Made by a program: the position numbers and the translations under genes | Notes under the pieces: model-generated | What the model saw: the letters and a program-made list of their open reading frames with translations, nothing else | What the model was told of the DNA's origin: nothing | The model's database searches: none | From: Acidimicrobiales bacterium | GTDB lineage: Bacteria; Actinomycetota; Acidimicrobiia; Acidimicrobiales; RAAP-2 | DNA length: 35,068 nt | Direction of reading: 5' to 3' | Assembly: GCA_017883045.1 (NCBI GenBank) | Contig: JADGOJ010000013.1 | Location: forward strand, 1-35,068 | Part shown: one piece after another, positions 10,510-15,211 of the stretch | How the letters are laid out: every line of letters begins with the position of its first letter | How positions within the stretch are numbered: the first letter of the stretch is position 1

Positions 10510-11769
10510 ATGACCGAGATCCTCCACCTCTCCACGTTCCTGCACCGTCCGATCTTCGATTCGGACGGCGACCGGATTGGCCGCGTCCAGGACCTGGTCG
10601 CGCGCCTCGGTGACGACGCGCACCCGCCCGTCGTCGGCGTCGTCATCCGCATCGAGGGCCGCAACCTCTTCGTGCCGATCCGCAAGATCGGCGGACTGGC
10701 CGAGGGACGGATGACGTTCCAGGGTCGTCGGGTCGACCTGCGGCGCTTCGAGCGCCGTCCCGGCGAGCTGCTGCTCGGCGAGGACCTGCTCGCGCGCCAC
10801 CTCATCAACCTGGTCCGGGGCCGACTCATCATCGCGAACGAGATCGAGATCGCCCAGATGGAGGGCCGCTGGGAGGTCGTCGGCGTCGACCCGGGCCGTC
10901 GGTCGTTCCTTCGTCGTGTCCTGGGCCAGAAGTTCGCCCAGCAGTTGAAGACCGACGCCATCGTCGACTTCGCGTCCATCGAGCCTTTCGTGTCCCACGT
11001 GCCGTCGGCTCGATTGCGCATCCCGTACCGCAAGCTCGCCAAGCTCCACCCGGCCCAGATCGCCGACCTCGTGGAACAGGCGAGTCACGAAGAGGGCGAG
11101 GAGATCATCGAGGCGGTCGGTCTCGACCGCGAGCTCGAGGCCGACGTCTTTGAAGAGCTCGACGTCACCCACCAGTTGGAGTTCCTCGAGTCGCGTAGCG
11201 ACGTCGAGGCCGCGCGCCTGTTGTCGCGCATGGAGCCCGACAACGCCGCGGACTTGATCAGCGAGGTCGACCAGGACCGGCGACTGCCGATCCTCGAGCA
11301 CCTGGCCGCCGACCAGCAGACCAAGGTCCGCCGGCTGCTCTCGTACAACGCCGACACCGCCGGGGGGCTGATGAACACGGACTTCGTGTCCGTACCCTCG
11401 AGCGCCACGGTCGACGAGGCCCTCGAGGCGATTCGCCACTCGAGCGTGCCCGCCGAGTCGGTGCACGCCGTCTTCTTGCTCGACGAGAGCGGACAACCCA
11501 TCGGGGCGGCCTCGATCGCGCCGCTCGTGCGGGCGCGCCCGGCTGATCTGGCGCTCAGCGTCGCGCGCACCCAACTCGCCCACGTGCACCCCCACTGGGA
11601 CATCCACCGCGTCTCTCGCAAGATGAGTGACTTCAACCTGACGGTCCTGCCGGTGCTCGACGACGAGCACAACAAGATGATCGGCGTCATCACAGTCGAC
11701 GACCTGCTCGAAGAGCTCCTGCCCCAGGGCTGGCGCCGCGAGTTCGGCATGAGCGGGGTGGAGGAGTGA
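10510..11769 (+). CDS. Soluble PRC-barrel/MgtE-N/CBS protein, probable Mg2+-sensing regulator
   Basis: A 419-residue protein without membrane segments. Residues 1 to about 130 form a beta-rich PRC-barrel-like half (HRPIFDSDGDRIGRVQDLV, then NEIEIAQMEGRWEVVGVD). About 180-290 is the helical MgtE intracellular N domain (LHPAQIADLVEQA, RMEPDNAADLI), ending in the hallmark YNADTAGGLM. About 290-410 is a CBS pair (TDFVSVPSSATVDEALEAI, and LTVLPVLDDEHNKMIGVITV). In full MgtE channels these same domains sense cytosolic Mg2+ and gate the pore. Here the pore domain is absent and the next gene encodes an Nramp-like permease, so the protein may gate or sense for that permease. The two genes are separated by 182 bases. 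Domain calls firm, function inferred. Confidence 0.88.
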   Translation: MTEILHLSTFLHRPIFDSDGDRIGRVQDLVARLGDDAHPPVVGVVIRIEGRNLFVPIRKIGGLAEGRMTFQGRRVDLRRFERRPGELLLGEDLLARHLINLVRGRLIIANEIEIAQMEGRWEVVGVDPGRRSFLRRVLGQKFAQQLKTDAIVDFASIEPFVSHVPSARLRIPYRKLAKLHPAQIADLVEQASHEEGEEIIEAVGLDRELEADVFEELDVTHQLEFLESRSDVEAARLLSRMEPDNAADLISEVDQDRRLPILEHLAADQQTKVRRLLSYNADTAGGLMNTDFVSVPSSATVDEALEAIRHSSVPAESVHAVFLLDESGQPIGAASIAPLVRARPADLALSVARTQLAHVHPHWDIHRVSRKMSDFNLTVLPVLDDEHNKMIGVITVDDLLEELLPQGWRREFGMSGVEE

Positions 11770-11795
11770 TGCCCCGTGCGCTCGGTCACGTTCAA

Positions 11796-11818
11796 AGGGG
11801 GTCTCTCTGAAACCCCCT
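11796..11818. terminator. Hairpin between the MgtE-N gene and the Nramp-like gene
   Basis: agggggt (11796-11802) pairs perfectly with accccct (11812-11818) around a 9-base loop, 26 bases after the stop codon. There is no T run, so it may be an attenuator or mRNA-processing element rather than a full terminator. The remaining bases to 11951 show no recognised riboswitch. Confidence 0.35.
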
Positions 11819-11951
11819 AGTACCAGCCCTACGGCGGACAACGCAATGATGCAACTTCGCTCGACTCCCTTGGCAGGCACCTAGCCCGCCGCCCGGGTTT
11901 CGACGTGGTTGTTTCGCCCAACGACCACGACGAGACGAGAGGAGGTGGAGC

Positions 11952-13532
11952 GTGCAGCGCGAACAACACAGCGACCAGCAGATCAGTGGAGCCTTCGGCA
12001 CCATCAAGGCCCATGACGTCGGCAACCGCAAGGGCCTGCGCGCCCGCTTCCTGACCCTCATCGCCATCATCGGGCCCGGGCTCATCGTCATGGTCGGCGA
12101 TAACGACGCCGGCGGGGTCTCCACCTACGCCCAGGCCGGCCAGAACTTCGGCTACTCGCTGCTTTGGACGCTGCCGCTCTTGATCCCGGTGCTGATCATC
12201 AACCAGGAGATGGTGGCGCGCCTCGGCGCGGTGACCGGCGTCGGCCACGGACGTCTGATCCGTGAGCGCTTCGGCCGCTACTGGGGCAACGTCTCGATCG
12301 GGTCGATCCTGCTGCTGAACTTCCTGATCATCATCACCGAGTTCATCGGCGTCTCGCTCTCGATGGAGTACTTCGGGGTCAGCCCGTACATCTCGGTGCC
12401 GGTGGCGGTGGTGCTGCTGTTCGCGGTCACGGCGTCGGGATCGTTCCAGCGCTGGGAGCGGTTCATGATGCTCTTCGTCGCCGTCAACTTCTTCGTCATC
12501 CCGCTACTGATCATGACCAGGCCCCACTACACGACGGCGTTGGTGCACGCGACCGTGCCCGGCATCCGCGGCGGTGCGACCTCGAGCGCGGTGCTGCTCA
12601 TCATCTCGATCATCGGTACGACTGTCGCGCCGTGGCAGCTCTACTTCCAGCAGTCCAACATCGTCGACAAGCGCATCACGCCGCGCTGGTTGAACTACGA
12701 GCGCATCGACACGATCCTGGGCTCGTTCATCGTCGTGATCGGCGCGTCCGCCTTGGTCGCCGCGAGTGCCGCGGGTCTGAGCCACCATGGCGGCACCAAC
12801 GCCTACACCAATGCGCTCGGGGTCGCCCGGGGGCTGGCCCGGCACGTCAGCCACGGATCGGGCGCCCTCTTCGCGATCCTGCTGCTGAACGCCTCGGTGA
12901 TCGGGGCCGCCGCGGTGACCCTCGCGAGCTCCTACGCGCTGGGCGACCTCGCCGGGTCGCGCCAGTCGCTCAACGCGCGCCTGCGCGACGCCAAGGGCTT
13001 CTTCGGCGCCTTCGCCGGACTGCTGGTCGTCGCGGGCACCGTCACGCTGCTGCCCGGCGCACCGCTCGGTCTGATCACGCTCGCCGTCCAGGCGATGTGC
13101 GGGCTGATGTTGCCGAGCACCACGATCTTCGTGCTGTTGCTCTGCAACGACCGCGAGGTCCTCGGGCCATGGGTGAACGGAAGGTGGCTGAACGTCGTGG
13201 CGACGATCATCGTGACCGTGCTGGTGGTGCTCTCGATCACCATGATGGTCTCGACGCTGTTCACGTCGGTGAACGTCGTCGCGCTGCTGACGGTGCTCTC
13301 CATCGCGGGGATCGGCGGCCTGGTCGTCGGTCTGCCGATCGGCCTGCGCCGGGCCGCCGCGCCGGTCAGCTACGACATCGACAAGCGTGACTGGCGGACC
13401 CCGCGACTCACGTTGCTGGCCCCCCTGCCGACCTCGCTGAGCCGTCGGATCCTCTTGCGGGCCGTGGGTTCGTATCTGCTGGTCGCCGGCACATTGCTGA
13501 TCGTGCGCATCGTCCAACTGTCGACCTCCTAG
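11952..13532 (+). CDS. Nramp (SLC11)-family divalent metal permease with divergent metal-site motifs
   Basis: A 526-residue polytopic membrane protein. The GTG at 11952 follows the very strong site gaggaggtgg. The Nramp scaffold is clear: GPGLIVMVG (41-49) leading into helix 1, and FGYSLLW (66-72). The two motifs that form the metal site differ from the canon. Helix-1 DPGN reads DAGG (52-55), preceded by DN. Helix-6 MPHN reads APWQ (226-229), so the methionine that gives Mn/Fe selectivity is missing. Nramp-related magnesium transporters also lack that methionine, and the preceding gene encodes a cytosolic MgtE-like sensor, so Mg2+ is a plausible substrate. Extra length lies in the C-terminal part (NYEIDKRD-like linker and a last helix). 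It is followed after 9 bases by a PIG-L gene. Confidence 0.88.
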   Translation: MQREQHSDQQISGAFGTIKAHDVGNRKGLRARFLTLIAIIGPGLIVMVGDNDAGGVSTYAQAGQNFGYSLLWTLPLLIPVLIINQEMVARLGAVTGVGHGRLIRERFGRYWGNVSIGSILLLNFLIIITEFIGVSLSMEYFGVSPYISVPVAVVLLFAVTASGSFQRWERFMMLFVAVNFFVIPLLIMTRPHYTTALVHATVPGIRGGATSSAVLLIISIIGTTVAPWQLYFQQSNIVDKRITPRWLNYERIDTILGSFIVVIGASALVAASAAGLSHHGGTNAYTNALGVARGLARHVSHGSGALFAILLLNASVIGAAAVTLASSYALGDLAGSRQSLNARLRDAKGFFGAFAGLLVVAGTVTLLPGAPLGLITLAVQAMCGLMLPSTTIFVLLLCNDREVLGPWVNGRWLNVVATIIVTVLVVLSITMMVSTLFTSVNVVALLTVLSIAGIGGLVVGLPIGLRRAAAPVSYDIDKRDWRTPRLTLLAPLPTSLSRRILLRAVGSYLLVAGTLLIVRIVQLSTS

Positions 13533-13541
13533 TCTCTCTTG

Positions 13542-14354
13542 ATGGCTTCCCCCCCCACCCTCGTCTGCGTCCACGCGCACCCCGACGACGAGGCGCTCTT
13601 CACCGCCGGCATCTCGATGCGCTACGCCGCTCGGGGCTACCGCGTCGTGCTGGTCACCTGCACCAACGGCCAACTGGGCCTCGACGACCAGGCCCGCCCC
13701 GGTTCTGATCCCGAGCACGACGTCGAGGTAACGAGGAGCGTGCGCGCCGGCGAACTCCAGCGCGCCGCCACGATGCTCGGCTTCGACCGGGTCGTCACGC
13801 TCGGCTTCGACGACTCGGGGATGGTCGGCTGGCCCCAGAACGAGAACCCCAACGCCTTCATGAACGTCGAGGTCGACAAGGTGGCCCGCACGCTCGCGGC
13901 GATCCTGGACGAGGTGCGCGCCACCGTGGTCGTGACGTACGACGAGACCGGCTTCTACGGCCACCCCGACCACGTCACGGCCAACGTCGTGACCCGTCGG
14001 GCCCTCGACTTCGCCACGAGCCCAGAGCGCCTCTACTACCCGGTGGTGCCCGCGGGCATCCTCACCAAGTTCGTCGAAGGGGCCAAGGCCCTGGGCGTCT
14101 TCCTACCCGCCTGGGTGCTGGACGCCGGGCTCAACGTGCCCGACGAGCTCGTCGCGACGACGATGGACGTGCGCGACTACGCCAAGCGCAAGCAGCTGGC
14201 GATGGCCGCGCACGCCTCCCAGGTCGACAACGGCGACCTGGTGCGGATGAACGAGGAGCTGTTCGAGATGCTGTTCGGCACCGAGTTCTACCAGCGCGCC
14301 TGGAGCCGTACGCCGGCGAGCGGCGACGCGACCGATCTCTTTGGAGGACTCTGA
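13542..14354 (+). CDS. PIG-L/LmbE-family zinc deacetylase (first of two)
   Basis: A 270-residue protein of the GlcNAc-PI de-N-acetylase family. Zinc ligands are in AHPDDE (near 13-18) and in GFYGHPDH (near 137-144). The aspartate in HPDDE is the general base. Members include MshB and Mca of mycothiol metabolism, and enzymes deacetylating other N-acetyl sugars. Length fits. The ATG at 13542 is preferred over the TTG just before it, although no clear ribosome-binding site is visible. The gene starts 9 bases after the Nramp-like gene and overlaps the next PIG-L gene by one base, so the three are probably co-transcribed. The substrate cannot be assigned; mycothiol-related is only a guess. Confidence 0.9.
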   Translation: MASPPTLVCVHAHPDDEALFTAGISMRYAARGYRVVLVTCTNGQLGLDDQARPGSDPEHDVEVTRSVRAGELQRAATMLGFDRVVTLGFDDSGMVGWPQNENPNAFMNVEVDKVARTLAAILDEVRATVVVTYDETGFYGHPDHVTANVVTRRALDFATSPERLYYPVVPAGILTKFVEGAKALGVFLPAWVLDAGLNVPDELVATTMDVRDYAKRKQLAMAAHASQVDNGDLVRMNEELFEMLFGTEFYQRAWSRTPASGDATDLFGGL

Positions 14355-15211
14355 TGGAGCAGTTGACATTCCTCGCCGTGCACGCCCACCCCGACGACGA
14401 GGCGAGTTCGTCGGGCGGCCTGTACCGGCTGCTCGCCGACCAGGGCGTGCGCACGGTCCTCGTGCTCTGCACCAACGGCGAGTGCGGCGACGCGCTCGAC
14501 GGCGCCAAGCCCGACGCCGACCACCACGACGGCGACGAGGTGGCGAAGATCCGCGCCGTCGAACTCGACAACGCCGTGAAGATCCTCGGCATCAGCCGGT
14601 TGGTGCGCCTCGGCTACCGCGACTCGGGCATGAAGGGCTGGCCCCAGAACGACGACCCCGAGTCGTTCTGGGCGACCCCGGTCCCGGTCGCTGCTGCGCG
14701 ACTGGCTCAGGTCCTGCTCGAGGAGCGCCCCCAGGTGATAATGACCTACAACGAGCATGGCTTCTACGGGCACCCCGACCACATCCAGGCGAACCGCATC
14801 ACGCTCGCGGCGCTCGAGCTGATCGACTACGAGCCCACGCTGTACTACAACGCCATTCCCAACTCGGTCATGGCGATGTGGCGCGAACGCTGGGAGCAAG
14901 AGGCGCGCGAGCAGGCCGAGGCCGACGCCGCCAAGGGCATCGTGCGCGAGCCAGAGGTACCGGACCTCGAGGAGGAGTTCGAGATGGGCACGCCCGACGA
15001 CCAGCTCGGCGCCATCATCGACATCAGCGAGGTCAACGGCGCCAAGTTCGACGCGCTCGAGGCCCACGAGTCCCAGATCGGCGATTCGTTCTGGATGAAG
15101 ATGGGTCGCGAGAAGTTCATCGAGACCATGCGCACCGAGTGGTTCGTGCGGGTCACCGATCCCCGGCGCCTCGGGGGCTGCGTGGAGGACATCTTCGCCG
15201 GCTACCGCTAA
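14354..15211 (+). CDS. PIG-L/LmbE-family zinc deacetylase (second of two)
   Basis: A 285-residue paralogue of the preceding gene, its ATG overlapping the preceding TGA (tgATG). Zinc motifs are AHPDDE (11-16) and GFYGHPDH (about 137-144). Shared with the first copy are LCTNGE-type and DSGMxGWPQN segments, which shows recent common descent. It differs by an insertion after LYYNAIPNSV: a charged, helical stretch rich in Glu, Ala and Arg (WEQEAREQAEADAAKG) and an acidic segment (EVPDLEEEFE) of about 50 residues. The end (WFVRVTDPR to EDIFAGYR) recalls Mca-like enzymes, but Mca-specific features are not all present. Followed at once by a perfect palindromic hairpin, so it is probably the last gene of the operon. 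Confidence 0.9.
   Translation: MEQLTFLAVHAHPDDEASSSGGLYRLLADQGVRTVLVLCTNGECGDALDGAKPDADHHDGDEVAKIRAVELDNAVKILGISRLVRLGYRDSGMKGWPQNDDPESFWATPVPVAAARLAQVLLEERPQVIMTYNEHGFYGHPDHIQANRITLAALELIDYEPTLYYNAIPNSVMAMWRERWEQEAREQAEADAAKGIVREPEVPDLEEEFEMGTPDDQLGAIIDISEVNGAKFDALEAHESQIGDSFWMKMGREKFIETMRTEWFVRVTDPRRLGGCVEDIFAGYR

Follow-up and report, generated by a model that had tools for sequence, protein, structure and literature searches.

The closest described counterparts of the locus analysed here are the NRMT operons. Shin et al. 2014 (PMC4072509) named NrmT, reported that most members have a neighbouring gene resembling the N-terminal cytoplasmic domain of MgtE, and speculated that this MgtE-like partner exerts feedback regulation from the cytoplasm. 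NrmT from Acidobacterium capsulatum completely repaired a defect in Mn2+ transport; Mg2+ transport was restored only when Mg2+ was in the low millimolar range, and co-expression with its partner gave no better rescue (PMC4072509). NRMTs (Nramp-related Mg2+ transporters) are recognized by the signature DxxG-TxxA/T, and EleNRMT transports Mg2+ as well as Mn2+, does not transport Ca2+ and is not coupled to H+ (Ramanadane et al. 2022, PMC8806188). Short open reading frames (ORFs) are also known from other Mg2+-related loci: in Salmonella, the 8-residue ORF mgtQ lies in the 219-nucleotide gap between mgtC and mgtB, and its translation frees the mgtB ribosome site (PMC8092293); in Mycobacterium tuberculosis, an M-box controls a conserved upstream ORF (uORF) with a conserved proline (PMC12810186). 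Here, we describe a 35,068-nucleotide stretch of DNA from an Acidimicrobiales bacterium (contig JADGOJ010000013.1; hereafter the window) in which the gene for a soluble MgtE-type sensor lies next to the gene for an NRMT-type permease, as does the gene for an MgtE cytosolic-domain protein in the operons of Shin et al. 2014. The source genome comprises 2.28 Mb in 156 contigs and is 94% complete.

Judged by its sequence, the gene pair is best read as a two-part Mg2+ system. We propose that it is an NRMT-type Mg2+-uptake operon made up of the importer, a stand-alone MgtE gate and two tiny ORFs (ORF-a and ORF-b) that link their translation, a reading to which we assign a probability of roughly 0.6. 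A sequence-only reading of this DNA had already posed the sensor of one transporter family as controlling the pore of another; since both the pairing and the feedback idea were published in 2014, the finding as posed was largely known, and that reading is a rediscovery of the arrangement reported by Shin et al. 2014. Compared with the described NRMT operons, the window has no M-box (some members do), a β-rich N-terminal region in the sensor, and a 182-base gap containing the two tiny ORFs. This analysis contributes the leader ORFs, M-boxes in the gap of three clade-i relatives (clade i denotes NRMTs with TxxA, as in the window, and clade ii those with TxxT), sensor clades that largely follow their partners, and the pairing of the sensor with DUF1003 proteins; the two ORFs and the DUF1003 partner are what looks new.

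The permease and its MgtE-type sensor

The permease ORF (11952-13532) matches the Nramp family (PF01566) at 240 bits against a cut-off of 29.8 and is the only Nramp found in its genome. The classical Nramp/MntH motifs, DxxN in transmembrane helix 1 (TM1) and A/CxxM in TM6, are absent from it. The altered DAGG and APWQ motifs noticed in the sequence-only reading are indeed present, at D52-A-G-G55 in TM1 and directly after T223-T-V in TM6 (T223-T-V-A226-P-W-Q), and these stretches carry the DxxG-TxxA signature. EleNRMT (7QIA) is the best solved relative at 218 bits, the next solved Nramp reaching 87 bits; 132 of 399 residues are identical, and D55, G58, T224, A227 and W229 of EleNRMT are aligned with the corresponding motif residues. 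At one compared position of the TM6b proton-path histidines, the window permease has a tryptophan aligned with a tryptophan of EleNRMT. With the signature and the Nramp fold in common with described members (Shin et al. 2014; Ramanadane et al. 2022), the permease is, by sequence, of the NRMT type, and homology to EleNRMT points to Mg2+ as a substrate.

The upstream ORF (10510-11769) contains an MgtE_N domain (68.6 bits; cut-off 25.9) and CBS domains (64.4 bits; cut-off 24), and the MgtE pore domain PF01769 was found neither in this ORF nor elsewhere in the 94%-complete genome, bearing out the earlier description of a pore-less sensor preceding an Nramp-fold permease. The PRC-barrel assigned to its N-terminus in that description is only partly upheld: the first 130 residues are confidently modelled as mainly β strand, but the Pfam match is weak, scoring 17.6 bits where the cut-off is 21.2, and a PRC match at E 0.01 occurs in only 2 of 15 aligned soluble sensors. 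Residues 175-404 can be aligned to TtMgtE, and the sensor model (mean pLDDT 86) matches MgtE cytosolic domains, fitting the Mg2+-bound form 2YVY with a TM-score of 0.84 on the target and an rmsd of 2.1. The residues of the MgtE Mg2+ sites (PMC5882242) map onto the sensor as E59 to D212, D91 to D244, D95 to D248, D247 to D398, D226 to N376 and D250 to E401. The positions of E59, D91, D95 and D247 are acidic in 42, 43, 43 and 43 of 43 soluble sensors, respectively, and in 10, 12, 14 and 10 of 15 full-length MgtE proteins of the class; in the alignment, the acids of sites Mg4, Mg6 and Mg7 are thus near-invariant in soluble sensors. The window sensor shares these acids and the N and CBS domains with MgtE, but it is a separate protein without pore or plug helix and has an asparagine at D226 of site Mg5. 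Where MgtE would enter its plug helix, sensor tails mostly read L[PG]xxWR in clade i and in the DUF1003-paired clade.

Sensor clades and their membrane partners

Conservation of the gene pair was among the checks that the sequence-only reading had proposed, and a neighbourhood survey finds it widespread. Among named GTDB genomes, the best 80 of 474 confirmed sensor loci were examined; NRMT is adjacent in 71, DUF1003 in three and neither in six, three of which lie at contig ends. Because adjacency is conserved to this degree, a chance pairing in the window is excluded. Record titles of sensor loci include Acidimicrobiaceae, Thermoleophilia, Chloroflexi, Dormibacterota and Armatimonadetes. Within 148 genomes of the class, an Nramp is present in 47 (above cut-off in 42) and MgtE_N in 92, and the sensor adjoins 27 of the 28 aligned Nramp ORFs that carry the signature and 2 of the 24 others (Fisher p 2e-11, relatedness not corrected, some unpaired loci having flanks of only 1.5-2.5 kb). 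The two paired Nramps outside the signature group read DxxG-TxxS. A few pairs are convergent (G033, G151 and L195), and one locus (L196:192-6469) holds two adjacent, divergently oriented sensor-NRMT pairs, one of clade i and one of clade ii.

Several loci depart from this arrangement or have other features. The sole unpaired signature carrier is a clade-i NRMT without an adjacent sensor (L056, G115:C78). A separate Nramp group of the class, including L012, L023 and L048, has DDDPSG in TM1 and TT[IV]SPY in TM6 (DxxG-TxxS) and no sensor in the fetched flanks. The soluble sensors of L202, L210 and L213 have more than 1 kb of downstream sequence with neither NRMT nor DUF1003 beside them. Selenocysteine tRNA genes lie near the sensor locus in L162, L165 and L173, and sensors 84-88% identical to the window's occur in records titled Acidobacteria (L141, L144), which are possibly mislabelled metagenome-assembled genomes.

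Sensor clades largely follow partner type. In a 58-row tree, all soluble sensors fall on one side of a branch from full-length MgtE (support 100/99), the 14 DUF1003-paired sensors form one clade (support 100/100), and NRMT-paired sensors split by NRMT clade with one exception, L111. The correspondence is looser among the named loci: with clades assigned by best BLAST reference, 61 pair a clade-i sensor with a clade-i NRMT and two pair ii with ii, and eight have a clade-ii NRMT next to a sensor scoring closer to the window's.

The second partner, DUF1003, belongs to a family for which we know of no established function. In the class, 14 members of a sister sensor clade lie, by coordinates, directly upstream of a DUF1003 gene, without an adjacent Nramp. 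A search of 296 phylum genomes gave 38 strong matches (>360 bits); 30 of these loci were fetched, and DUF1003 stands beside the sensor in all 30, eight of which are class loci already counted (the DUF1003-paired loci are L071, L072, L073, L075, L083, L120-L128 and L216-L245). The partner, a membrane protein of two helices, has QAxYAAPLILLAQNRQ as an invariant stretch; its model (pLDDT 77, pTM 0.34) shows long helices and is too weak for a fold search. Only 14 of 65 class DUF1003 matches lie beside a sensor, and neither of the two DUF1003 genes in the window's genome does. Within the literature searched, the publications that mention DUF1003 are not about Mg2+, as judged from their listed entries. 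On the boldest reading, the two partner types would make the MgtE-type sensor a module exchangeable among partners, and the DUF1003 proteins it accompanies would be candidate pores for divalent cations.

Two tiny ORFs in the sensor-permease gap

The gap between sensor and permease contains a conserved block. With no pattern imposed, it was found in 17 of the 18 gaps (window included) from loci with an NRMT sharing 60% identity or more with that of the window; L155 lacks it. ORF-a starts at or next to the sensor stop codon, in the window as TGATG with GGAGGAG just upstream, and the CTG of ORF-b overlaps the TGA of ORF-a. ORF-b begins LKPPST, continues into a variable tail and is preceded by a Shine-Dalgarno-like AAGGGGG. 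Several bases are fixed by the search pattern itself in the third-position, spacing, frame and codon counts; with that limit, in 48 of 50 distinct gaps the ORF-a frame runs open from an ATG or GTG lying between -6 and +8 relative to the sensor stop, compared with 3 and 2 for the other two frames, and the distance from sensor stop to CTG, 28-55 nucleotides, equals 1 modulo 3 in 44 of 50, the remaining six gaps having another in-frame start. The proline codons of ORF-b vary synonymously (the first is CCC in 45 and CCT in 5; the second shows all four CCN), ATG replaces CTG in G012, and in more distant relatives P-[PRH]-S is retained, in frame with an upstream ATG, GTG or CTG.

Of the 120 family genomes, 48 contain the core pattern, each a single time, and none contains the reversed pattern. 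All 30 loci fetched from this search fall between a sensor and an NRMT; 18 are new, 7 of the 25 first counted as new having peptides identical to those of known named loci. A P-x-S ORF is present in 37 of 62 clade-i gaps of at least 100 nucleotides, against a resampled mean of 0.05, the pattern having been drawn from the same gaps. An RNA model of the block (R1) yields 10 matches in 396 phylum genomes, seven in the sensor-NRMT gap and three weak ones outside it (G329, G190 and G033; E 0.018-0.030); further weak matches lie in the gaps of L156, L163, L170 and L171 and outside the gap in L180 and L189. A second helix after the core is partly supported, with 66% of cells paired and one slid control nearly as high. 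By their sequence, ORF-a and ORF-b are probably translated, possibly in response to Mg2+, and they may tune importer production.

Two other interpretations of the block were set aside. A new riboswitch aptamer was the first reading of the gap and was dropped for the two ORFs on account of the start codons, the in-frame shifts and the frame control. A programmed frameshift between ORF-a and ORF-b, whose site spacing resembles that of prfB, was rejected on inspection: ORF-a does not end in a constant codon, and a stop in the +1 frame occurs only where T is the variable base.

Like mgtQ, the window places a short ORF with a ribosome site in a long gap just 5′ of a Mg2+ transporter gene, and by analogy its ORFs could act likewise. 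It differs from mgtQ in having two overlapping ORFs, a CUG start and LKPPST in place of Asp2/Glu5, so that the early acidic, ribosome-destabilising codons of mgtQ are absent from ORF-b; the two show no sequence kinship by eye, none having been searched for. The M-box-controlled uORF rv1805A of M. tuberculosis is also a conserved short ORF with an early proline, and the ORF of L177 likewise follows an M-box, whereas the window has other downstream genes and no M-box. No description of ORF-a or ORF-b was found in the literature searched, including the available text of Shin et al. 2014.

Features of the locus are collected in Table 1. Directly downstream of the permease gene lie two deacetylase-like genes (window 13539-15211) with a one-base overlap between them, the first PIG-L/MshB-like and the second similar by eye. 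A scan of the locus for promoters and terminators found none and was uninformative.

Table 1. Positions of the sensor, permease and intergenic features in the window
Feature	Position	Strand	Basis
Soluble MgtE-type sensor, 419 residues: β-rich PRC-like N-terminal region, MgtE_N, CBS pair, no pore	10510..11769	+	
PRC-barrel-like stretch, sensor residues 6-58, under Pfam cut-off	10525..10683	+	
MgtE N domain, sensor residues 179-281, including D212, D244, D248	11044..11352	+	
CBS domain (better-scoring one), sensor residues 351-403, including N376, D398	11560..11718	+	
Sensor tail LPQGWRREFGMSGVEE, at position of MgtE plug-helix entry	11719..11766	+	
GGAGGAG, ribosome-site-like, within last sensor codons, 5′ of ORF-a	11760..11766	+	sequence
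ORF-a, ATG overlaps sensor stop (TGATG), ends TGA, MPRALGHVQRGSL	11769..11810	+	
ORF-b, CTG start overlaps ORF-a stop, 25 codons and TAG, LKPPSTSPTADNAMMQLRSTPLAGT	11807..11884	+	
Predicted hairpin cgtggttgtt / aacgaccacg, 5′ of NRMT ribosome site	11904..11929	+	
AGGAGG, ribosome-site-like, for NRMT gene	11940..11945	+	sequence
NRMT-type permease, 526 residues, GTG start	11952..13532	+	
TM1 metal-site motif D52-A-G-G55 of NRMT	12105..12116	+	
TM6 metal-site motif T223-T-V-A226-P-W228 of NRMT	12618..12635	+	

The Mg2+ link and competing readings

M-box riboswitches (RF00380) were sought in all 80 named loci, at gathering thresholds in 74 and by E-value in the last six, and were found upstream of the sensor in L206 and between sensor and NRMT in L172 and L177. 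The class locus L110 also carries one in this gap. The three gap M-boxes score 135-140 bits, and L110, L172 and L177 are all clade-i relatives of the window. Because relatives carry M-boxes, Mg2+ is the likeliest ligand of the operon, short of proof for the window.

In the proposed mechanism, the NRMT would import Mg2+ through a widened Nramp site, as homology to EleNRMT suggests, and the soluble upstream protein would be a free-standing counterpart of the cytosolic gate of MgtE. A divalent ion bound between its N and CBS domains would signal that the cytosolic Mg2+ pool is full, and the Mg2+-loaded sensor would then restrain the permease through a presumed contact between the two. Translation of sensor and permease may be linked through ORF-a and ORF-b. 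Termination-reinitiation is the likeliest means, first at the sensor stop and then at the CUGA overlap, and ribosomes crossing ORF-b would govern how accessible the NRMT ribosome site is.

Several observations count against this proposal. On the protein side, the paired A. capsulatum NrmT rescued Mn2+ fully and Mg2+ partly and gained nothing from its partner, and site Mg5 is altered in the window sensor, D226 being retained in just 4 of 43 soluble sensors. On the RNA side, neither an M-box nor a member of any other Rfam family was detected in the window, and M-boxes occur in only 3 of the 80 named loci. As for the tiny ORFs, CUG is an unusual start codon, and 25 of the 62 clade-i gaps lack a P-x-S ORF; six of these 25 have a second leader-ORF type (CUG start, L-x-A-D, later proline), against 0.07. 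ORF-b shows no third-position excess past codon 6 (0.55, 0.62 and 0.57 by position), so that this test marks only its start as apparently protein-coding. Pairing of the NRMT ribosome site averages 0.78 compared with 0.69 in resampled sequences (40 of 50 gaps), exceeding 0.8 in 23 of 40 gaps versus 30% in the control; predicted sequestration of this site lies only weakly above control. Finally, the same genome encodes an MgtA-type ATPase (750 bits; cut-off 611) and a CNNM protein (115 bits), which rule out the NRMT as its sole Mg2+ importer; CorA and MgtE pores were not found in this 94%-complete genome. The loci with the second leader-ORF type are L160, L164, L166, L176, L177 and L205, that of L177 lying after the M-box.

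The two-part Mg2+ system of the sequence-only reading thus stands as the best reading, on the signature, the adjacency, the kept acids and the M-boxes in relatives, while control of the pore by the sensor is unproven, the one published co-expression test being negative. That test is also in line with a soluble protein that does not gate the permease at all but buffers cytosolic Mg2+, or acts on expression or on another protein, with adjacency reflecting no more than a shared need for Mg2+; the three soluble sensors that have room for NRMT or DUF1003 but lack both would fit. We consider this unlikely in view of sensor clades that largely follow partner type, adjacency that persists in convergent orientation, and the two cognate pairs side by side in L196. 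A rather unlikely alternative holds that the permease carries mainly Mn2+, or Mn2+ and Mg2+ alike, and that the MgtE-like protein answers to Mn2+ or is a metal chaperone. The A. capsulatum pair acted as a Mn2+ transporter (PMC4072509), EleNRMT also carries Mn2+ (PMC8806188), and the window has no detected M-box and the genome's only Nramp; set against these are the signature and closest solved relative, both NRMT, the M-boxes in the same gap of clade-i relatives, and the MgtE Mg2+-site acids kept in the sensor.

Instead of being translated, the gap block could serve as an RNA element or as a site of protein binding: a helix between GGGGG and CCCCC is possible and shows one compensatory change, in L149, the Lys AAA and Ser AGT codons are invariant (though the search pattern fixes these bases), and the coding signature ends at codon 6 of ORF-b. 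The frame control, the 1-modulo-3 spacing, the second proline codon with every base occurring at its third position, the AUG of G012 and the in-frame P-x-S behind AUG or GUG in farther relatives all speak for ORFs, and the helix is little better than slid controls, which leaves the alternative quite improbable.

A more ambitious version of the Mg2+-uptake proposal, speculative and on balance unlikely, is that the operon senses Mg2+ twice: after translation through a detachable sensor, placed beside two unrelated membrane proteins, NRMT and DUF1003, with the DUF1003 proteins so paired acting as unrecognised divalent-cation channels, and during translation through a leader-ORF relay. Ribosomes would pass sensor, ORF-a, ORF-b and NRMT via overlapping stops and starts, and low Mg2+ would slow or abort decoding of the Lys-Pro-Pro of ORF-b, opening the NRMT ribosome site. 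The relay would then be an actinobacterial counterpart of mgtQ/mgtL without sequence kinship.

The 2014 description left the role of the MgtE-like fragment open, and the clades that largely follow their partners, the kept Mg2+-site acids and the two tiny ORFs now provide handles on it. If the sensor also serves DUF1003, a role for this family without known function in the transport of divalent cations could be put to the test. A response of ORF-b to Mg2+ would establish leader-peptide control of an actinobacterial Nramp-type Mg2+ importer.

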